Part shown: positions 3,984 through 16,266 of the stretch, piece by piece | Numbering within the stretch: position 1 is the first letter of the stretch | Layout: the number at the start of each line of letters is the position of its first letter | Source of the DNA: Actinacidiphila yanglinensis | GTDB taxonomy: Bacteria > Actinomycetota > Actinomycetes > Streptomycetales > Streptomycetaceae | Reading direction: 5' to 3' | DNA: 64,000 bases | NCBI RefSeq assembly: GCF_900107965.1 | Contig: NZ_FNVU01000007.1 | Coordinates: forward strand, 310,001-374,000 | The notes under the pieces: model-generated | What the model was told of the DNA's origin: nothing | What the model saw: only the letters and a program-made list of their open reading frames with translations | Databases searched by the model: none | Made by a program: the position numbers and the translations under genes

Positions 3984-5366
3984 ATGGCAACCGATCGCGC
4001 CGACCATGGTGAAGACCTCACCGAGGACGAGGCGGAAGCCCACATCAGGGGGGTGTGCTTCAAGACGGGACCGCCCGCGCGGACCGGCGTGGAGCTGGAG
4101 TGGCTCGTCCAGGACCGCTCCGACCCCCGCGAACTGATATCCCTCGAACGGCTGGACGCGGCACTCGCTCCGGTCGAAGCCCCAGGGGCTCTGCCCCGGG
4201 GCAGCAGGCTCACCCGGGAACCGGGTGGCCAGGTGGAGCTGAGCTCTCCACCCGCACCCACGCTCGCGGGGTGCGTGACGGCGATGGCCGAAGACCTCGC
4301 CGTCCTCAGGGAAGCCGTCGACCGAGCCGGACTGGTGCTCGTCGGACACGGCATGGATCCCCATCGCGAGCCGCCCCGGGTCGTCGACCATCCCCGCTAC
4401 CTGGCGATGGAGCGCTTCTTCGACCGCGAGGGCCCCTGGGGCCGCACGATGATGCGCCGTACGGCATCCCTGCAGGTCAACCTGGACAGCGGCGACGAGA
4501 GCGCGGGGGTGACCGGCTACCGCAGGCGCTGGGCGCTGGCCCACAGGATCGGCCCGGTCATGGTCGCCGCGTTCGCGAACTCGCCGTTCCGGGACGGCCG
4601 GCCGACCGGCTGGGTGTCCACCCGGCAGGCCAACTGGGCCCTGATGGACCCGGGCCGCACCCGCCAGCCGCACCATGCCGACGAGCCACGTGACGCCTGG
4701 GCGCGGTACGCCCTGGACGCCAGGCTGCTGTGCATCCGCCCGGACGGCCGGGCGGAGGACGTCCAGAACGTCCAGAACGCAGAGCAGGAGTCCGATCGCG
4801 GCGCGGGCAACAGCTCCGCTCAGGGCTCGAACAACAGCTCTGCATCCGGCACCGGATCCGGCACCTCCTGCGACTGGACCGCGCCTGCGGGGCTCACTTT
4901 CCGCGAGTGGGTACGCGGTGCGCGCGGCGTACGGCGGCCCACCGTCGGCGACCTGGACTACCACCTCAGCACCCTCTTCCCGCCGGTCCGCCCGCGCGGC
5001 TGGCTGGAACTGCGGATGACCGACGCGCAGGACGGCGAGCAGTGGATCGTGCCGACGGTGCTCGCGGCGACCCTGTTGGACGATCCGGTCGCCGCCGAAT
5101 CCGCCTACGCCGCCACCGAACCGCTGAGCGCGGACGGTGATCCTCTGCCCTCGGACGCCATCTGGCGCCGAGCCGCCCGGATCGGCCTGGCCGACCCGGA
5201 ACTGGCCAAGGCGGCACGCGCGTGCTTCGCCGCCGCCGAGAGCGCCCTCGCGCGCCCCGGCGCCTCCCCTGCCCTGCGGCAGGCCGTCTCCGACTTCGCC
5301 GAGCGCTACCCAGAACGCGGCCGATGTCCGGCCCACGACCAGTTGGACGCGTTGAGCCGCGCCTGA
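3984..5366 (+). CDS. egtA: ergothioneine biosynthesis glutamate-cysteine ligase EgtA
   Basis: EgtA joins glutamate and cysteine with ATP to give gamma-glutamylcysteine, the sulfur donor used by EgtB. The 460-residue sequence has the glutamate-cysteine ligase type 2 signature GVELEW near residue 34, followed by QVELSS and a conserved SLQVNLD. The order with egtB, egtC and egtD downstream fixes the assignment. The start ATG has an ideal Shine-Dalgarno. Odd feature: about 40 residues rich in Ser, Asn and Gly (about residues 258-298) interrupt the usual spacing before the conserved GLTFREW. This looks like a low-complexity insertion in a surface loop, and its 5' end carries the tandem repeat GTCCAGAAC. 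Confidence 0.95.
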   Translation: MATDRADHGEDLTEDEAEAHIRGVCFKTGPPARTGVELEWLVQDRSDPRELISLERLDAALAPVEAPGALPRGSRLTREPGGQVELSSPPAPTLAGCVTAMAEDLAVLREAVDRAGLVLVGHGMDPHREPPRVVDHPRYLAMERFFDREGPWGRTMMRRTASLQVNLDSGDESAGVTGYRRRWALAHRIGPVMVAAFANSPFRDGRPTGWVSTRQANWALMDPGRTRQPHHADEPRDAWARYALDARLLCIRPDGRAEDVQNVQNAEQESDRGAGNSSAQGSNNSSASGTGSGTSCDWTAPAGLTFREWVRGARGVRRPTVGDLDYHLSTLFPPVRPRGWLELRMTDAQDGEQWIVPTVLAATLLDDPVAAESAYAATEPLSADGDPLPSDAIWRRAARIGLADPELAKAARACFAAAESALARPGASPALRQAVSDFAERYPERGRCPAHDQLDALSRA

Positions 5367-5384: not shown

Positions 5385-6902
5385 GTGACTGACCCACGCA
5401 CCTCTCGCCACAACACTGCCGAAAATCAGGCCACTTCAGTCCCCTCGGCATCTTCGGCACCAGCAGCACCTCACGCACCTTCGGACCCGGCGGGCGCTCC
5501 GCACGCCCCGGCGCCGGGCAGCGCCGCCGCCGGCACGGCGACCGCCGGCTCCGACCCGGCCGCCCGCGCGCTGGCCGCGCTGCGGACCGCGCGGCACCGC
5601 ACCGGCGTCCTCACCGACTCCGTCACCGACGACGACCTCGTCGCCCAGCACTCCCGGCTGATGTCCCCGCTGGTGTGGGACCTGGCGCACATCGGCAACC
5701 AGGAGGAGCTGTGGCTGGTCCGCGAGGCGGGCCGCCGCACCGGGGTGCGGCCCGACCTGGACCACCTCTACGACGCGTTCCGGCACCCGCGCGCCGACCG
5801 CCCCGCGCTGCCGCTGCTCGGCCCGGCCGAGGCGCGCGGCTACGTCGCCCAGGTACGCGACGAGACCCTCGACGTGCTGTCCGGCGTCGACATCGACCCG
5901 GACCACCCCGAGCGGCTGCTGGCCGGCGGCTTCGTCTTCGGGATGCTCGCGCAGCACGAGGCGCAGCACGGCGAGACCATGCTCGCCACCCACCAGCTGC
6001 GGTCGGGACCGGCCGTGCTGGACGCCCCCGCGCCGCCGCCGGCGCCCGCGGACGCCGCCACGCTGCCGCGCGAGGTCCTCGTCCCCGGCGGGCCGTTCAC
6101 CATGGGCACCAGTACCGAGCCGTGGGCCCTGGACAACGAACTGCCCGCGCACCAGGTGGGGGTGGCGCCCTTCTGGCTGGACACCGTGCCGGTCACCAAC
6201 GGGCGCTACGCCGACTTCATCGCGGCCGGCGGCTACCGCGACCCGGCGTGGTGGACGCCCGAGGGCTGGCGGCACGTCCAGGAGGCCGGGCTGGAGGCCC
6301 CGCTGTTCTGGTCCCGGGACGGCGACCGCTGGATACGCCGCCGGTTCGGCCACCTGGAGCCGGTGCCCGCCGACGAGCCGGTGCTGCACGTGTGCTGGTA
6401 CGAGGCCGACGCCTTCGCCCGCTGGGCCGGGCGGCGGCTGCCGACCGAGGCCGAGTGGGAGAAGGCGGCGCGGCACGACCCGGAAACCGGCCGCTCGCGC
6501 CGCTACCCCTGGGGTGACGCCGACCCCGGCCCGCAGCACGCCAACCTCGGCCAGCGCCACCTGCAGCCCGCCCCGGCGGGCAGCTACCCCGAGGGCGCGG
6601 CGCCCAGCGGCGCCCGGCAGCTGGTCGGGGACGTGTGGGAGTGGACGTCCTCGGACTTCTCCCCCTACCCGGGCTTCGCCGCCTTCCCCTACCGGGAGTA
6701 CTCGGAGGTGTTCTTCGGCCCCGACTACAAGGTGCTGCGCGGGGGCGCCTTCGGGGTGGACCCGGCGGCCTGCCGCGGCACCTTCCGGAACTGGGACTAC
6801 CCGATCCGGCGGCAGATCTTCTCCGGTTTCCGCACCGCGAGGGACGCCGACCCGGACCGCGACGGCACGAGCGGCACTCCGGCGGGCGGTGGGGCTGCCT
6901 GA
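5385..6902 (+). CDS. egtB: ergothioneine sulfoxide synthase EgtB
   Basis: EgtB is a non-haem iron enzyme that couples gamma-glutamylcysteine to hercynine with oxygen, giving the sulfoxide intermediate. The 505 residues show a long Ala/Pro/Ser-rich N-terminal tail (about residues 1-60), then a DinB-like helical domain with the iron-binding His residues (LAHIGN and QHEAQHGE), then a C-terminal formylglycine-generating-enzyme/sulfatase-modifying domain with PFTMGT, LPTEAEWEKAA and VLRGGAF motifs. The start is GTG at 5385, 18 bases after egtA stops. The stop TGA overlaps the ATG of egtC by one base, so the cluster is translationally coupled. The N-terminal extension is longer than in most homologues and is probably disordered. 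Confidence 0.96.
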   Translation: MTDPRTSRHNTAENQATSVPSASSAPAAPHAPSDPAGAPHAPAPGSAAAGTATAGSDPAARALAALRTARHRTGVLTDSVTDDDLVAQHSRLMSPLVWDLAHIGNQEELWLVREAGRRTGVRPDLDHLYDAFRHPRADRPALPLLGPAEARGYVAQVRDETLDVLSGVDIDPDHPERLLAGGFVFGMLAQHEAQHGETMLATHQLRSGPAVLDAPAPPPAPADAATLPREVLVPGGPFTMGTSTEPWALDNELPAHQVGVAPFWLDTVPVTNGRYADFIAAGGYRDPAWWTPEGWRHVQEAGLEAPLFWSRDGDRWIRRRFGHLEPVPADEPVLHVCWYEADAFARWAGRRLPTEAEWEKAARHDPETGRSRRYPWGDADPGPQHANLGQRHLQPAPAGSYPEGAAPSGARQLVGDVWEWTSSDFSPYPGFAAFPYREYSEVFFGPDYKVLRGGAFGVDPAACRGTFRNWDYPIRRQIFSGFRTARDADPDRDGTSGTPAGGGAA

Positions 6903-8761
6903 TGTGCCGCCACCTCGCGTACCTGGGTCCTCCGGTGCCGCTGGCCCGGCTGCTCGTCGAGCCCCCGCGCGGGCTGTACGAGCAGTCCTGGCAGCCGCGC
7001 AGGCAGCGGCACGGCACGGTCAACGTCGACGGCTTCGGGGTCGGCTGGTACCCGCCGGAGCCGACCATCGCGCTGCCGTCGCCGGGCGCACCCGGTGGCA
7101 CGCCGGCCGGCCCGCACGGCGCCCCGGCGGCGCGGGCCGGTCGGCCCGGGGACGGGGCGGGCGACCCCGGCTTCCCGCTGCCGGCCCGCTACCGCCGGGC
7201 GCTGCCGGTGTGGGCCGACCCGAACCTCGCCGACCTGGCCCGGACCATCGCCAGCGGTGCGGTCCTGGCCGCGGTGCGCTCGGCCACCGAGGGCACCACG
7301 CCCGACGAGTCGGCGGCGGCCCCCTTCCGGGACGGCCGCTGGCTGTTCAGCCACAACGGGGCCGTGCCGGACTGGACCCGGCTGCCGACCGGCCTCGGCC
7401 CGGCCGAACTGCTCGCCCTGGAGGCGCACTCGGACTCCGCGCTGCTGTGGGCGATGGTCGCGGGCCGGCTGCGCCGCGGCGAGCCGCCCGGCGGCGCGCT
7501 GGCCGCGGTGATCCGCGAGGTCGCCGCGGCCCGCCCCAGCGCGCGGCTCAACTTCCTGCTCACCGACGGCCGCACCATCGCCGCCAGCGCGTGGGGCGAC
7601 ACGCTCTGGTACCGGCTCCGCCCGGGCGCGGTGGTCGTCGCGTCCGAGCCGGACGACGCGGTCGGGGAGTCACTCGGCGAGTGGCGCGAGGTCCCCGACC
7701 GTTCCCTGCTCCTGGCCACCACGGACGGCGTCCGCGTCATCGCGCTGCGCCCCGAACGCAAGGACACCCCCCTCATGAACGCCGAGAATCCGAGCCGCTT
7801 CACCCTCGACGACCGGCTGCCCGCCGACTACTTCACCACCACGCTGCACGCCGACGTGACCGGCGGCCTCACGGCCGTCCCGCGCACCCTGCCGCCGAAG
7901 TGGTTCTACGACAAGCGCGGCAGCGACCTGTTCGAGCAGATCACCAAGCTGCCCGAGTACTACCCGACCCGCGCCGAGCAGGAGATCCTGGTCCGCCGGG
8001 CGCCGGAGATCGCCGAGGCCACCGGCGCGGCCACCCTGATCGAGCTGGGGTCCGGCTCCTCCCGCAAGACCCGCCTGCTGCTCGACGCGCTCACCGCGGG
8101 CGGCACCCTGCGCCGCTACGCGCCCCTGGACGTCAGCGCCTCCGCCCTCGAGGAGGCCGGGCGCGCGATCTGCGCCGACTACCCGGGGCTGACCGTCTCC
8201 GCGACGGTCGCCGACTTCGAGTCCGGCATCCCGCTCTCCGACGAGCCGGGCCCCCGCCTGCTGGCCTTCCTCGGCAGCACCATCGGCAACTTCGACCGGC
8301 CGCAGCGCGCCGCCTTCTACCGCACCCTGGCGCACAGTCTCAGCAGCGACGACATGCTGCTGCTCGGCGCCGACCTGGTCAAGGACCCCGCGGTCCTGGT
8401 CCGGGCGTACGACGACGCGGCCGGGGTCACCGCCGAGTTCGACAAGAACGTGCTGCACGTCCTCAACCGCGAACTGGGCGCGAACTTCGTACCCGATGCC
8501 TTCGAGCACGTGGCGGTGTGGAACACCGAGCAGGAGCGGATCGAGATGCACCTGCGCTCCCGCACCGCCCAGACCGTCAAGATCCCCGACCTGGACCTCT
8601 CCCTCGACCTGGCCGCGGGCGAGGACATCCGCACCGAGCTGTCCTGCAAGTTCCGCCGCGACTCCCTCACCGCAGAGCTCCACGACGGCGGCTTCACGGT
8701 CCGCCACTGGTGGACCGATCCGGCCGACCGCTTCGCCCTCCTGCTGGCGGTCCCGAACTAG
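6902..8761 (+). CDS. egtC: EgtC amidohydrolase open in frame into EgtD (apparent EgtC-EgtD fusion, 619 aa)
   Basis: Residues 1 to about 290 are EgtC, the class II glutamine-amidotransferase-fold hydrolase that removes glutamate from the gamma-glutamyl hercynylcysteine sulfoxide. The protein starts Met-Cys (MCRHLAYLG), leaving Cys2 as the N-terminal nucleophile, and carries SHNGAVPDW and LLTDGRTIAASAWGD. No stop codon separates it from EgtD, and the frame runs on to 8761. The junction is a run of six C at about 7767-7772. With five C the codons would read GAC ACC CCC TCA TGA, ending EgtC exactly at the ATGA overlapping the egtD ATG at 7775. So this is either a real one-base fusion or a homopolymer sequencing error, and EgtC on its own would span 6902 to about 7777. 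Confidence 0.85.
   Translation: MCRHLAYLGPPVPLARLLVEPPRGLYEQSWQPRRQRHGTVNVDGFGVGWYPPEPTIALPSPGAPGGTPAGPHGAPAARAGRPGDGAGDPGFPLPARYRRALPVWADPNLADLARTIASGAVLAAVRSATEGTTPDESAAAPFRDGRWLFSHNGAVPDWTRLPTGLGPAELLALEAHSDSALLWAMVAGRLRRGEPPGGALAAVIREVAAARPSARLNFLLTDGRTIAASAWGDTLWYRLRPGAVVVASEPDDAVGESLGEWREVPDRSLLLATTDGVRVIALRPERKDTPLMNAENPSRFTLDDRLPADYFTTTLHADVTGGLTAVPRTLPPKWFYDKRGSDLFEQITKLPEYYPTRAEQEILVRRAPEIAEATGAATLIELGSGSSRKTRLLLDALTAGGTLRRYAPLDVSASALEEAGRAICADYPGLTVSATVADFESGIPLSDEPGPRLLAFLGSTIGNFDRPQRAAFYRTLAHSLSSDDMLLLGADLVKDPAVLVRAYDDAAGVTAEFDKNVLHVLNRELGANFVPDAFEHVAVWNTEQERIEMHLRSRTAQTVKIPDLDLSLDLAAGEDIRTELSCKFRRDSLTAELHDGGFTVRHWWTDPADRFALLLAVPN
7775..8761 (+). CDS. egtD: L-histidine N-alpha-methyltransferase EgtD
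   Basis: EgtD trimethylates the alpha-amino group of histidine with S-adenosylmethionine to make hercynine, the first ergothioneine intermediate. Read from the ATG at 7775, which has its own AAGGA at 7760-7764 ten bases upstream, the product is 328 residues, the usual length. Landmarks are PKWFYDKRGSDLFEQIT, the SAM-binding IELGSGSSRKTRLLLDAL, the LGSTIGNF loop and the C-terminal substrate region ending in HWWTDPADRFALLL. This independent start and the normal length argue that egtD was a separate coupled gene before (or apart from) the in-frame join to egtC. No egtE lyase gene is nearby, so the last C-S cleavage step must be encoded elsewhere. Confidence 0.95.
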   Translation: MNAENPSRFTLDDRLPADYFTTTLHADVTGGLTAVPRTLPPKWFYDKRGSDLFEQITKLPEYYPTRAEQEILVRRAPEIAEATGAATLIELGSGSSRKTRLLLDALTAGGTLRRYAPLDVSASALEEAGRAICADYPGLTVSATVADFESGIPLSDEPGPRLLAFLGSTIGNFDRPQRAAFYRTLAHSLSSDDMLLLGADLVKDPAVLVRAYDDAAGVTAEFDKNVLHVLNRELGANFVPDAFEHVAVWNTEQERIEMHLRSRTAQTVKIPDLDLSLDLAAGEDIRTELSCKFRRDSLTAELHDGGFTVRHWWTDPADRFALLLAVPN

Positions 8762-9869: not shown

Positions 9870-12800
9870 TCAGTGCACCTCGGCGTTCTGCGCGGTCATC
9901 GCGCCGTCGTAGACGTTCAGCCCGAGCAGGCCGCTGCCGTAGGTGGTGTCGGTGACGTCGATGACCGGGGCCGTGCCGTCGCCCAGGAAGACCTGGATGC
10001 GCGGTCCGCTGGTGACGACCTTCAGGTGGTAGGACTTCTGCGGGTCCACGGGGGTGGCGTAGGTCGCGATGTCCTGGCCGGGCCGCCACAGCTTGATCTG
10101 GCCGCCGCCGCTGGTGTTGATGTTCGCCGTGTAGTGCGCGCTCGCCGTGGCGTCCGCCCGGAAGGTCAGGCCCGCGGCGGCCGCACTGCCCAGCGACAGG
10201 TCCGCCTCGTAGCGGAAGTCCGTGCCGCTGCTGCTCGACAGCGAGAACCCGTCGCCGGGGGCCGCGCCCTGCTGCCCGTCCGCCGTGGCGGCCCACGCAC
10301 CGCTGACGGTGTGCCACGGACCGGCCAGGTTGGTGGTGAAGGCCGGCGGCCGGCCCTGGGTCAGCTCCGCCTGCTGGAAGGTGGCGGCGCCGCTGAAGAC
10401 GTTGATGCCGAACCGGCCGCTGCCGTAGGTGGAGTCGAGCGCGTCGATGACGGGATTCGGGTCGTCGCCGAGGAAGACCCGCAGCCGCGCCCCCTCGGCG
10501 ACGACCTTCAGGTGGTAGGTCTGGCCGGGCGTGATGGGCGTGCTGTGGGTGGCGATGTCCAGGCCCGGCCGCCACAGCTTGATCTGGCCGCCGCCGCTGG
10601 TGTTGATGTTCGCCGTGTAGTGTCCGCTCGCCGTGGCGTCGGCCCGGAAGGTCAGGCCGATCGCCACGGCACTGCCCAGCGACAGGTCCGCCTCGTAGCT
10701 GAAGTCCGAACCGGTGGCGCTGTTGAGCAGGAAGCCGTCGGCGGTGGCCCAGCCCCGCCGGCCCGCCGGAGTGTCGGTCCAGATCGAGCCGTCGAGCAGC
10801 TGCCAGTCGCCGGTGAGGTCGCTGAGCAGCCCGGCGTTGGCGTTGCGCAGCGTGGCGGCGCCGTCCTGCACGTTGAGGCCGAACAGGCCGCTGCCGTAGG
10901 TGGTGTCGGTGACGTCGATGACCGGGGCCGGGGCGCCGTCGAGGAACACCTGGAGGTGCGGCCCGACGGCGGTCACGGCCAGATGGTGGGACTTCTTCGG
11001 GTCGATCCGGGCGGTGTGCGTGGCCAGGACGGCGCCCGGGCGCCACAGCGTGACCTGGCCGCCCTGCGCGGCGTCGAGGGTGGCGGTGTAGTGGTGCCGC
11101 GCCGTGGCGTCGGCGCGGAAGGTGAGGCCGGCCGCGGCCGCCCCGTCCAGGCTGACGTCCGCCTCGTAGCGGAAGTCGGTGCCGCTCTGGGCACCGAGGT
11201 AGAAGCCCTGGCCGTGGGCGGTGGCCTTGTTCCCGTCGGCGAGGTCCTTCCACGTCCCACCGTGCGCCTGCCAGGGGCCGGCGATGTTGCTGCCCGGGTT
11301 GGTGGTCGGGATGAAGTCGGGCCAGGCGCGGCGCAGTTCGTGGAACTGGAGCGAGACCAGCCGCACCCGGCCGCCTTCGGCGTGGACGGCTATGCCCCGG
11401 GCGGCGAGGGCCGGGTCGAAGTCGAGGTTGTTGCTGGAGGAGAAGAGGCCGTCGTTGCCGAACACCTCCAGCTGGCCGCGGTCGACGAGCACCCGGATCT
11501 TCACCCGGCCGTTCACCGGGGGCATGGCGGTACCCATCAGGGTCTGCCGGGTCAGGTCGTAGACGACGTCGGCGTTGCCGGTGCCGTCGGCGTAGGTGTG
11601 CACCCTCACGCCGAAGGAGGTGGCGGAGGCGCTGGTGGTGTCGAACTCGGCGATGACCTCGTAGCCGTCGGCCGAGATCCCGGCCAGCGGGTTGCCGGCC
11701 GGGTCGGCGCTGATCATCCGGTCGGACCAGGTCCGGCCGCCGGTGCGCAGCGACGCGATCTCGGCGATCGGCTGCCGGGTGACGCGCAGCCCCGCGGGGG
11801 TGGTGACCAGGCGCAACTCGGCCGGGAAGGTGGCGTTGCCGGTCCAGACGGTGCCGAAGTTGCCCTGCTGCCAGGCCATCTGCACGATCCGGCCGTCGGG
11901 CATGTCGTTGAAGACCTGACCGGCGTAGGCGTTGCGTCCCACGTCCATCTGCTGGGGGGCGGTCCAGTCGGTGGTGAAATGCGTCCCGTCGAAGTCGCCG
12001 ACGACGTACTTCGTACTGGCCGCGTTGATCACCCACTTGACGGTGGAGCCACCGTCGACCCGCATCGGGTACATGTCCGGGCACTCGAAGAGCCAGTCGG
12101 CGGTGAGCCTGCTGGCGTACGTCCAGTCCAGCAGGTTGGTGGAGGTGTAGATGTCGTAGCCGTTGCCGCCTTCGTTCGACCAGAACACCATCACCCACTT
12201 CTGGTGGGCCTCGTCCCACAGCACCTTGGGGTCGCGGCTGTCGGTGCTGGCGGCGGGCGGCGCCGCGACGACGCGTCCGTTGCCGTAGGACGTGAAGGTC
12301 CGCGCGCCGTCGGTGCTGTAGTCCATCAGCACCCCGCCGGTGCCGGTGAACACCACGATCGGGTCGTCGGGGCCCTTCTTGAGGCCGGTGACGTTGTGCT
12401 TGTCGACGACGCCCGCGCCCGACCACAGGTTGCCGGGCTGCACGCCCGGTTCGAGCGCGACGGCCTGCTGCGTCCAGTGCACCAGGTCGGGACTGGTCGC
12501 GTGCCCCCAGTGCATGGTGTCCCAGACCAGCCCGTGCGGGTTGTGCTGGTAGAACATGTGGTAAGTGCCCCGGTAGTACAGCGGGCCGTTGATGTCGTTC
12601 ATCCAGCCGATGCGCGAGCTGAAGTGGAACTGGCCGCGGTAGTACTCGTCGTAGGCGCCGATCTTCGTGGTCGGGTACGGGTACTCGGGATAGTCGGCGG
12701 GGCTGTCGGCGTACGCCTGCGAGCCGCGCAGGGCGGCGGGCAGGAAGGTCAGGGCGGTCACCGCGGCGGCGCCGGTCAGGAAGGTGCGCCGGTTCGCGAG

Positions 12801-12896
12801 AGGTGACGTCAGCGAACCTTCCTGGGGGCGCGGAGCGGGATCGGAGGGTGTGGCCGCGGACGACGCGGGCGCAGGAGGGAACGTACTGTCGACCAT
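9870..12896 (-). CDS. secreted GH32 levanase/fructanase with three C-terminal repeat domains
   Basis: A 1008-residue secreted fructan hydrolase (levanase/inulinase class) that would release fructose outside the cell. A twin-arginine signal NRRTFLTGAAA is at residues 35-45, with probable cleavage after SQAYA (about 63). The GH32 catalytic domain spans about 85-525 with all three acidic residues in context: WMNDING (nucleophile Asp101), SRDPK (Asp222) and ECPD (acid/base Glu271). Three tandem copies of an about 155-residue sugar-binding/concanavalin-like domain follow (about 539-686, 695-845 and 858-1007). Each has DF.YEADLSL, GLTFRADA and a Y-GSGL/R-FG-NV ending. The ATG at 12896 was chosen for its GGGAG site and the Tat signal; the frame stays open far upstream, but only across the ATPase gene. 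It is the last gene of the sugar transporter operon. Confidence 0.92.
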   Translation of the reverse strand: MVDSTFPPAPASSAATPSDPAPRPQEGSLTSPLANRRTFLTGAAAVTALTFLPAALRGSQAYADSPADYPEYPYPTTKIGAYDEYYRGQFHFSSRIGWMNDINGPLYYRGTYHMFYQHNPHGLVWDTMHWGHATSPDLVHWTQQAVALEPGVQPGNLWSGAGVVDKHNVTGLKKGPDDPIVVFTGTGGVLMDYSTDGARTFTSYGNGRVVAAPPAASTDSRDPKVLWDEAHQKWVMVFWSNEGGNGYDIYTSTNLLDWTYASRLTADWLFECPDMYPMRVDGGSTVKWVINAASTKYVVGDFDGTHFTTDWTAPQQMDVGRNAYAGQVFNDMPDGRIVQMAWQQGNFGTVWTGNATFPAELRLVTTPAGLRVTRQPIAEIASLRTGGRTWSDRMISADPAGNPLAGISADGYEVIAEFDTTSASATSFGVRVHTYADGTGNADVVYDLTRQTLMGTAMPPVNGRVKIRVLVDRGQLEVFGNDGLFSSSNNLDFDPALAARGIAVHAEGGRVRLVSLQFHELRRAWPDFIPTTNPGSNIAGPWQAHGGTWKDLADGNKATAHGQGFYLGAQSGTDFRYEADVSLDGAAAAGLTFRADATARHHYTATLDAAQGGQVTLWRPGAVLATHTARIDPKKSHHLAVTAVGPHLQVFLDGAPAPVIDVTDTTYGSGLFGLNVQDGAATLRNANAGLLSDLTGDWQLLDGSIWTDTPAGRRGWATADGFLLNSATGSDFSYEADLSLGSAVAIGLTFRADATASGHYTANINTSGGGQIKLWRPGLDIATHSTPITPGQTYHLKVVAEGARLRVFLGDDPNPVIDALDSTYGSGRFGINVFSGAATFQQAELTQGRPPAFTTNLAGPWHTVSGAWAATADGQQGAAPGDGFSLSSSSGTDFRYEADLSLGSAAAAGLTFRADATASAHYTANINTSGGGQIKLWRPGQDIATYATPVDPQKSYHLKVVTSGPRIQVFLGDGTAPVIDVTDTTYGSGLLGLNVYDGAMTAQNAEVH

Positions 12897-12973
12897 GGAA
12901 GTGCTCCCAAGGGGCGGTCGGTAAGGGTGTGGTGCCGGCGGGGCCGCGGCAGACGGCTGCCGGGCCCGGTCGC

Positions 12974-13746
<773 letters not shown>

Positions 13747-13750
<4 letters not shown>

Positions 13751-14781
13751 GCCTTCACGCTCCTGATCCACTGGTCGACGGACACGGCAGCGATCACCAG
13801 CACGCCCACCGACAGGACTTGGTAGTTCGGGTCGAACCCGGCCAGCGCCAGGCCGTTGTCGAAGACCTGGACGATGACCGCGCCGATCAGCGAGCCGACG
13901 ACGGCTCCGCGCCCGCCGAACAGGCTGGTACCGCCGATGACCACCGCCGTGATGGACTCCAGGTTGGCGTTCAGACCGCTGTTGGGGTCACCGCCGCCCA
14001 CCCGGCCGACGAGGATCCAGGCCGCCACCGCGATGGCCAGGCCGGCCACCATGTAGGCGCTCAGCAGCACCCGGTTGACGGAGATACCGGCCAGGCGGGC
14101 GGCTTCGGCGTCGTCGCCCACTGCATAGAGGTGACGGCCCCAGGCGGTGTAGCGCAGCGCGAAGCCCATGACCACGTACAGGGCGATCATCAGCAGCACG
14201 CCGTTGGTGAGGTGGAGCGAGCCGATGGAGACGGTGTCCGCGCTCCACAGCAGGAAGCCGCCGGGTTGCAGGGACACCGTCTGGCCCTTGGCGTAGATGA
14301 GCGTCACCGCGGTGAAGATGCTGAGCGTGCCCAGGGTGACGATGAACGGCGGCAGTTTGATCCGCGTCACCAGCAGCCCGTTGAGCGTCTGCGCGGCGAC
14401 CGCGAGCACCGCACCGGCCAGCAGCGCCAGCACACCGGGGACGCCGTGGTCGAAGACCAGCTTCGACATCACCAGCGACGAGAGCACCATGACCGCGCCG
14501 ACCGACAGGTCGATGCCCGCGGTGAGGATCACGAGGGTCTGGCCGACGGCGAGCGACCCCACGACGGCCACCTGCTGGGCGATCAGCGAGAGGTTCTGGA
14601 GGTGGTAGAAGCGACTGTTCAGGAGGGTGAAGGCCACCCCCGCGAGGATCAGGACGATCGCCGGGCTCAGCGCCGGCTGGCGGTGCAGGACGGCGTGCAC
14701 GCGCTGGCCCGGGCCGGCCGGCCGTTTGAGGAGGTCCTCCGCCAACTGCGGGGTGGATTCACTGCCCACGTCGGTGGTCAT
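13747..14781 (-). CDS. sugar ABC transporter permease (RbsC/FrcC type)
   Basis: A 344-residue integral membrane permease of the BPD_transp_2 family, with about eight to ten hydrophobic segments between residues 35 and 340. It has the family-typical stretches SLAVGQTLVILTAGIDLSVG and, near the C-terminus, GGTSLFGGRGAVVGSLIGA. The ATG at 14781 with AAGGGA upstream is preferred over an upstream in-frame start at 14829 that lies in a hairpin-rich leader. Its stop overlaps the ATPase start. It forms the membrane channel of the importer encoded by this operon. Confidence 0.93.
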
Positions 14782-14835
14782 CTGCGGTCCCTTCGCCGCC
14801 CGCCGCAGGACGGCGGCAGGCGGTGGCATGGTGGT

Positions 14836-14930
14836 GGAGGCGCCGGCGGGGGTCGGGTCGAGTGGCGCCCGCCGGCGCCTCCGGTCTTGGAGGGCAGGTC
14901 AGGACGCGGGGCCGGGCCCGCCGGGCCCGG
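14836..14930 (-). promoter_or_regulatory. two intercistronic hairpins between binding-protein and permease genes
   Basis: A perfect 15-base-pair stem (arms 14836-14850 and 14868-14882, loop 17) and a second stem of 8 base pairs (14912-14919 with 14923-14930, loop GCC) lie between the stop of the sugar-binding lipoprotein gene and the permease start. Such structures commonly protect the upstream message or partly terminate transcription, so that binding protein is made in excess of membrane components. That role is inferred, not shown. Confidence 0.65.
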
Positions 14931-14951
14931 TCGCGCGCTCCGTGTGGTGGT

Positions 14952-16118
14952 CTAGCTGCCCCAGCAGGCGGAAGCGGCCTGCGTCGGGGACTGGACGGTC
15001 ACCCCGTTGAGCGGCTTCGCGGCGACCAGCGCGGTGCCGGTGTCGTAGAAGGTCTTGCCCTGGGTGACGCTCGGCTTGGAGCCGCCGCGGGCCAGCTTCG
15101 CGATGGAGTCGACGCCCAGCGAGGCCATCTTGCCCGGGTACTGGACGGCGTCCGTGGCGAACTCCCCACTGCTCACGAGCTTGAGGCCGCTGCAGCTGCC
15201 GTCGATCGCGTAGACCGCGACCTTGCCGGCCTTGCCCGCGGCCTTGAGCGCGTTGTAAGCGCCCTGCGCGGCGGGCTCGTTGATCGCGTACACGACGTTG
15301 ATGTCCGGATGGGCCGACAGGCAGTTCTCCATCGCGGTGCGCCCACCGTTGATCGCGCCCTGGGTCGGCTGGTGGCAGGCGATGCTGTAGGAGCCGCCGG
15401 GACCACCGGCAACCCCCTTGTACTGGCCGGACTTGGCTTCCTTGGCGTTCTGGGTGGTGCTGCCCGGGTCGATGCCCATTCCTTCGAGGAAGCCGTGGTC
15501 GCGGTCGATGTCGACCGACACGACCTGGTTGTTGAACAGGTCGAGCATCGCGACGACCGCGGGCTTGCCGGCCAGCGCCGCCGCGGCGTACTGCCCGTCG
15601 AGCTTGCCGGCGGCGGTGTTGTCGGTGGCGTAGGTGATGTCGGCGACGCTGGTGGGGTTGGTCGCCGTGTCCAGCGCGATCACGAACAGCCCGGCCTGCT
15701 TGGCCTGCCGCAGCGCCGTGTTGACGGCGTCCCCGTTGGTCGTGATGAGGATGCCCTTGTCGCCGCGGGCGATCGCGTTGTCGATGGCGCTGATCTGGCT
15801 CTGGGTGTCGCCGTCGCTGCTGCCGGCCGCGACCGTCAGCTTCACGTTGTCCTTGGCGGCGGCGGCCTTGGCGTCCTTCTCCATCGACACGAAGTACGGG
15901 TTGGTGAGCGTCTTGACGATCAGGGACACTCCGACCTTCGCGCCGGAGTTGCTGCCGGCGGAGGACCCCGACGATCCCGAGGACCCGGAGGACGAGCCGC
16001 CGTTGGACCCGCAGGCCGCGAGCGCCGCCGCCAGACAGACCGTCAGACCGGCCGCCGCGAGACGGGAACCGCGCGCGCGGCGAGAGGCCGCGGTCACGCC
16101 GGATGGGGAGACGTTCAT
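14952..16118 (-). CDS. sugar-binding lipoprotein of the ABC importer
   Basis: A 388-residue periplasmic-binding-protein-like lipoprotein (Peripla_BP_4 / ribose-type family) displayed on the outer face of the membrane. The signal peptide ends in the lipobox LAAC with Cys36, followed by a Gly/Ser linker. Family segments VGVSLIVKTLTNPYFVSMEKDA, ARGDKGILITTNGDAVN and TDAVQYPGKMASLG are present. I took the ATG at 16118 (GAAGGG eight bases upstream), as the longer frame adds residues not part of a signal peptide. First gene of the levan operon, divergent from the LacI regulator. Similarity in type to FrcB suggests fructose binding. Confidence 0.92.
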   Translation of the reverse strand: MNVSPSGVTAASRRARGSRLAAAGLTVCLAAALAACGSNGGSSSGSSGSSGSSAGSNSGAKVGVSLIVKTLTNPYFVSMEKDAKAAAAKDNVKLTVAAGSSDGDTQSQISAIDNAIARGDKGILITTNGDAVNTALRQAKQAGLFVIALDTATNPTSVADITYATDNTAAGKLDGQYAAAALAGKPAVVAMLDLFNNQVVSVDIDRDHGFLEGMGIDPGSTTQNAKEAKSGQYKGVAGGPGGSYSIACHQPTQGAINGGRTAMENCLSAHPDINVVYAINEPAAQGAYNALKAAGKAGKVAVYAIDGSCSGLKLVSSGEFATDAVQYPGKMASLGVDSIAKLARGGSKPSVTQGKTFYDTGTALVAAKPLNGVTVQSPTQAASACWGS

Positions 16119-16156
16119 CTCGATAACCCTTCTGTAACCAATCGCGACCCGACTCT

Positions 16157-16172
16157 GAGACAACGTGGTCTC
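16157..16172. promoter_or_regulatory. candidate LacI-family operator
   Basis: GAGACAACGTGGTCTC is palindromic at 14 of 16 positions with a central CG, the usual form of a LacI/GalR-family operator. It lies in the 148-base region between the divergent sugar-binding lipoprotein and LacI genes, so one site could control both. Nearby direct repeats GTGCGAAAG (about 16191 and 16221) and TCTGTAAC (about 16131 and 16237) may also matter. Confidence 0.6.
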
Positions 16173-16266
16173 GACGTCAGACTGGCGGTTGTGCGAAAGT
16201 GCGTCAAGATGCTGTTCGAAGTGCGAAAGCAACGAGTCTGTAACGCAGCCCCCGTGGGAGACAACG

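Follow-up and report, generated by a model that had tools for sequence, protein, structure and literature searches.

Within a 64,000-nucleotide stretch of the Actinacidiphila yanglinensis genome (contig NZ_FNVU01000007.1, positions 310,001 to 374,000; hereafter the window, in which positions are counted from its first letter), the ergothioneine genes egtC and egtD form one continuous reading frame on the forward strand (6902..8761). We propose that this frame is an inherited egtC-egtD fusion and a gene within a gene, yielding both an EgtC-EgtD protein and free EgtD, a reading that we consider rather likely. Comparison of predicted reading frames confirmed that the fusion is real, inherited and present in Actinacidiphila, Streptacidiphilus and Embleya loci. 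The use of an inner start, the activity of both products and the benefit of surplus EgtD are the parts of the proposal that we infer.

The fused frame and its spread among relatives

The frame opens at the ATG at 6902, closes at the TAG at 8759-8761 and contains no stop in its 619 codons, giving a product with a computed mass of 66.8 kDa. Its first 291 codons (6902..7774) matched the EgtC profile TIGR03442 with 257.3 bits against a cut-off of 218.65, and its last 328 codons (7775..8761) matched the EgtD profile TIGR03438 with 373.1 bits against a cut-off of 290.9. When the joined frame was scanned whole, the scores (253.5 and 370.4 bits, respectively) remained above both cut-offs. An earlier note on this DNA had described one continuous EgtC-EgtD frame of this extent, which the letters and both profile cut-offs bear out, and had suggested that hercynine synthesis and EgtC hydrolysis would reside on one polypeptide, for which the continuous frame provides support at the level of prediction.

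A match to the joined protein was present in all 35 genomes of the genus, and in 25 of them (L002-L026) the frame ran from EgtC into EgtD uninterrupted by a stop. The other ten were checked as carrying a split pair, with an EgtD identity of 57-62% (genomes G007, G008, G010, G014, G019-G022, G026 and G030; loci L027-L031 and L277-L282). These split EgtDs fell into two Streptomyces-like groups on the EgtD tree described below, and transfer has probably replaced the cassette in these ten genomes on more than one occasion. Second EgtD-like matches besides the fused locus were seen at G003:C32:3197-4192 (67% identity) and G034:C2:95985-96980 (57% identity).

We then considered the family in a draw of 101 genomes, the source genome included, of which 99 had EgtD; 79 loci were taken from the 77 EgtD-bearing genomes outside the genus. 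Sixteen of these loci were fused, 61 were split and two had no EgtC that we found, and the fused ones belonged to three genera (11 in Streptacidiphilus, four in Embleya and one in a third genus). In the class sample of 148 genomes, 65 had EgtD, and none of the 54 class loci outside the family was fused (40 split, 14 without a found EgtC). The calls of a missing EgtC, two in the family and 14 in the class, came from tblastn with the EgtC of the window, and some of the stretches stop at contig ends (L264, L267). Below-cut-off EgtD-like matches of two genomes (G063, G069) and second matches of three others (G207, G208, G237) were left out of the loci.

Among the named loci, 11 of 80 scored as fused, including those of Embleya hyalina, Streptacidiphilus fuscans, Streptomyces zagrosensis and one Acidimicrobiales metagenome-assembled genome; the named relatives carrying the fused type were mostly Actinacidiphila (Streptomycetaceae). 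All 120 of the protein matches listed scored as EgtC followed by EgtD in one chain, in a list chosen by similarity and length, which carries no information on the frequency of fusion. This count includes P0052, whose N-terminal part looks out of frame. We rejected P0064 (933 amino acids, with MCRH at residue 310) as an EgtB-EgtC-EgtD fusion, as its upstream part looks by eye like another frame over egtB. A viral scan with P0083 found no relative.

We constructed an EgtD tree of 216 rows with FastTree and a midpoint root in order to place the fusions. It excluded L220 and L276, in which EgtD is short, as well as loci lacking EgtC and protein rows whose EgtD part was shorter than 290 residues; identical rows were dropped (257 of 276 remaining before thinning), all 45 protein rows without a linker Met were kept along with 18 Met-bearing ones, and only L036, L037, L053, L058 and L103 were entered from the named loci. 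The main clade comprised 85 fused rows including the window (support 94), and the protein search contributed a second fused clade of 13 rows (support 99). The fusions of L103 (S. zagrosensis), L053, P0101, P0102 and P0116 stood apart, and L215/P0086 and P0078 branched beside the main clade, with P0078 paired with the split row L058 (Actinospica). As the minimum number of changes between the fused and split states was eight, it is likely on this tree that fusion arose separately several times or that some fused genes split again, and single metagenome fused rows could be frameshift errors.

The embedded ribosome-binding site and start of egtD

At the junction in the window, the frame reads CGC AAG GAC ACC CCC CTC ATG AAC, so that an AAGGA Shine-Dalgarno sequence (7760..7764) ends 10 nucleotides ahead of an in-frame ATG (7775..7777), the proposed inner start. 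Among the 25 fused loci of the genus, AAGGA was present in 24 and AGGA in one, while the ATG was present in all 25. The base following AAGGA varied (G in 10, C in nine, A in four and T in one), and therefore Glu and Asp alternate in the protein while the Shine-Dalgarno sequence stays. On the genus tree each of the sites -10 to -1 changed three to eight times and the ATG not at all, a zero that the alignment of the loci on the ATG makes partly automatic.

We extended this comparison to 41 fused loci, consisting of the 25 genus and 16 family loci, in which the linker varied in length from 14 to 76 codons. An ATG or GTG preceded at 4-12 nucleotides by a Shine-Dalgarno core of at least four bases occurred within the linker in 39 of the 41 loci, as opposed to 9.4% of background segments, and cores of at least five bases occurred in 27 of the 41, as opposed to 6.7%. 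The background comprised 22,480 segments of equal length from elsewhere in the same frames, taken from 43 loci (the 41 together with L103 and L053). Three family loci (L164, L172 and L173) had GTG in place of ATG. The S. zagrosensis locus, though apart from the main clade, had a 108-codon linker ending in AAGGAG and a GTG.

The RNA at the junction was predicted to be weakly structured. Averaged over 28 loci and for two placements of the folded interval, 91% and 95% of codon positions in the same gene were more structured than the junction start, and the 16 family fusions gave 91% and 93%. The egtD starts of 60 split relatives were less structured than 93% and 94% of positions, so that junction RNA was about as weakly structured as the egtD starts of split relatives. 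The fusion at L053, which lacks the start, gave 63% and 59% over its linker.

We propose the following model from these observations. Ribosomes starting at 6902 would produce EgtC-EgtD (619 amino acids), in which EgtC would be kept at the N terminus so that its Cys2 is exposed after removal of Met, with EgtD carried on a flexible linker; additional ribosomes would start de novo at the AAGGA and ATG (7760-7777) and produce free EgtD of 328 amino acids. Termination-reinitiation has been described for overlapping gene pairs in the matched passages of PMC10666635. As no termination occurs at the junction, this process cannot serve egtD, and free EgtD therefore needs a de novo start. The products would be proteins of 66.8 kDa and 36.1 kDa, with no free EgtC of 30.8 kDa, and the surplus of EgtD, the first enzyme of the pathway, would be the benefit. 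The fused gene probably descends from an ordinary pair of neighboring egtC and egtD genes, in which the egtC stop would have been lost while egtD retained its own ribosome-binding site. We lean towards the view that selection kept this site inside the frame and that the inner start was subsequently lost in some lineages, which came to rely on the fusion alone.

The main competing explanation is a plain bifunctional fusion, in which only the 619-amino-acid protein is made and the Shine-Dalgarno sequence and ATG are relics, kept by descent or because of the Lys-Asp/Glu...Met residues that they encode. We regard this as possible but unlikely. Several observations favor it or weigh against our proposal. 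The 41 fused loci are related, and are not 41 independent cases; the absence of changes in the ATG is subject to the alignment effect mentioned above; and the RNA control lacking a start is a single locus (L053). Duplex energy with the anti-Shine-Dalgarno sequence alone also failed to single out the junction, as its start ranked first among in-frame ATG, GTG and TTG codons in only three of 29 loci; in the window it came second among 14. Cores of at least five bases also preceded 17 of the 76 other internal ATGs. It was after this weak energy ranking that the core-and-spacing scan with its background and the RNA structure were used.

Furthermore, fused lineages without the inner start exist. 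In the scan of 41 loci, L184 and L203 had no Shine-Dalgarno core with a start in the linker. Among the protein stretches, a fused subclade of 19 rows within the main clade (P0072 to P0098) had hardly any linker Met, the sole one (P0095) lacking a preceding Lys-Asp/Glu, and smaller groups of the main clade (P0073/P0075/P0099, P0069 and P0082) were likewise without one. Altogether, 45 of the 120 listed fused proteins lacked a Met in the 30 residues leading up to the EgtD anchor, although Val stands in some of them at the place where relatives read from DNA have GTG, and in P0027, P0044 and P0045 the Met sits farther upstream; among the 75 Met-bearing proteins, some Mets (P0056) are not at the start site. 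Judged from these predicted proteins, many fused lineages have the inner start but not all need it, and because some lack it, fusion alone can suffice.

Speaking against the plain fusion are linker letters that change often around an AAGGA and a start that stay (with the reservation that the loci were aligned on the ATG), Glu/Asp and Met/Val exchanges that preserve the signals, and RNA structure as low as at real starts. We prefer the gene-within-a-gene reading. A third explanation, that a protease cleaves the linker and so yields two proteins, appears very improbable; the linker is predicted to be disordered, but its sequence and its length vary except at the start signals, and no search for protease sites was made.

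The least probable explanation, which we consider to have almost no chance of being correct, is a sequencing error at the six-C run just upstream of the ATG (7767..7772), in which the true sequence would have five C and encode two separate genes; in its favor are the homopolymeric nature of the run and the usual overlap that a run of five would restore, but the fusion occurs in 25 of the 35 genus genomes, which were assembled separately and mostly have other junction letters, and these fused relatives rule out a one-base error. The earlier note had located this run correctly, and its remark that five C would put the TGA of ATGA into the EgtC frame agrees with the letters. However, its view that the join rests on a single C, with five C as the likely alternative, was not supported, since relatives are fused without the run. 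The junctions of the nearest relatives (GAC ACC ACC CTC ATG in L003 and GAC ACC ACC CCC ATG in L004) equal that of the window in length and are in frame without six C, as is the junction GAC ACC CTC ATG of L012. The fusion is therefore independent of the C run, which is a detail of the source genome and not what causes the join. The same note had set one fused product against two products of normal size, which is probably not an either/or choice, since the junction keeps an in-frame Shine-Dalgarno sequence and start; a fused protein and free EgtD, without free EgtC, would be expected from this locus.

Predicted enzymes and surrounding genes

Both halves of the protein retain the hallmarks of enzymes, namely of a predicted EgtC hydrolase and a predicted EgtD methyltransferase. 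In the predicted structure model, the EgtC half matched the fold of 4zfk (target template modeling (TM) score 0.93), and the EgtD half matched those of 4pim and 4uy5 (0.94 and 0.95). The model of the fused protein had a mean predicted local distance difference test score (pLDDT) of 88.7 and a predicted TM score of 0.56, with low confidence at residues 286-295, the disordered linker core (7757..7786; pLDDT below 50). A rigid pairing of the EgtC and EgtD domains is thus unsupported, given this predicted TM score and a disordered linker of varying length.

The EgtC nucleophile Cys2 lies in the sequence MCRH beside the start at 6902, and was invariant in all 54 aligned proteins. In an N-terminal-nucleophile enzyme, the nucleophile at residue 2 is exposed once Met has been removed, and placing EgtC first in the chain accords with the requirement of such an enzyme for a free N terminus. 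The title of structure 4zfl names a C2A variant of EgtC. Residues 63-86 of EgtC (7088-7159) form a low-confidence insertion rich in Gly, Pro and Ala, with pLDDT below 50 at 63-67 and 69-86. In the EgtD half, we take Y353, N463, Y503 and S581 to be the substrate-site residues Y56, N166, Y206 and S284 (offset 297). M549 and E579 correspond to M252 and E282 of the title of 4pip (offset 297 to 4uy5), and all six substrate-site positions were invariant in the 54-protein alignment.

In the matched passages of PMC11993508, EgtD acts first in the pathway and EgtC acts after EgtB, and direct channeling between the fused pair is therefore not an obvious gain. No EgtE (TIGR04343) above the cut-off was found in the whole source genome, where the best match had 95.3 bits against 400, and 14 control genomes likewise matched this profile below the cut-off. 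The last step of the ergothioneine pathway may be carried out by another pyridoxal phosphate enzyme.

The source genome comprises 9.59 Mb in 43 contigs, and the egt cluster in the window runs in the order egtA, egtB and the fused egtC-egtD frame, all on the forward strand. egtA, for glutamate-cysteine ligase (3984..5366), scored 415.9 bits with TIGR03444 (cut-off 370.8), and egtB (5385..6902) scored 445.4 bits with TIGR03440 (cut-off 360). The egtB TGA (6900-6902) overlaps the egtC ATG as TGATG. The EgtC frame remains open further upstream to a GTG at 6635, which would give an open reading frame of 708 codons with an extra stretch at 6635-6901; a gene caller choosing this GTG would bury the catalytic Cys2, as seems to have happened in P0064. 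Next to the cluster, a long open reading frame on the reverse strand (9870-16232) with repeated C-terminal domains is, by eye, presumably a levanase-type glycosidase, and its neighbors look like what we take to be ATP-binding cassette sugar-transport genes.

Relation to known systems and significance

The split egtC/egtD pairs of Streptomyces and other actinomycetes have the same gene order and enzymes as the fused locus, and in 59 of the 61 split loci of the family the EgtD start is preceded by a Shine-Dalgarno core, placed like the embedded one. They differ in that a stop closes the split EgtC and EgtD occupies a separate frame or cistron, whereas in the fused locus the stop is gone. The same fusion is represented in UniRef by P0022 and P0054, from Actinacidiphila and Streptacidiphilus relatives, under the automatic name 'Multifunctional fusion protein', which covers one product; no mention of an inner start was seen there. 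Among the matches listed from open-licence full texts, no paper on an EgtC-EgtD fusion or its embedded start was found, and queries on fusion with an internal start and on fusion of overlapping genes returned nothing relevant to EgtC-EgtD from those texts.

Fungal Egt1/EgtA, as described in the matched passages of PMC5066259 and PMC11993508, resembles the fusion here in joining ergothioneine enzymes in one chain, but has the EgtD-type domain first and EgtB, the enzyme of the next step, as its partner, and those fungi have no EgtC. The proposed second product has likenesses in Cas11b within cas8b (PMC11899642) and in the Rpn genes (PMC10327210), where, according to the portions matched, one frame yields a full-length protein and its C-terminal part through an in-frame inner start. 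Those inner starts have been shown experimentally, whereas that of egtC-egtD is predicted and its parts are two fused metabolic enzymes. The fusion is already in databases under automatic names, and it fits two known kinds of arrangement, enzyme fusion and the internal in-frame start.

An apparent oddity at a homopolymer thus led to a lineage-wide fused enzyme and to a testable bifunctional gene that keeps the start of its second enzyme. For annotation, one called product may overlook a second protein. The finding bears on the amounts of ergothioneine enzymes, as EgtD makes hercynine first and the EgtC reaction follows two steps afterwards, and also on the path from adjacent, translationally coupled genes to fusions. 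If our proposal is correct, the fusion of neighboring operon genes would have been caught here at successive stages.

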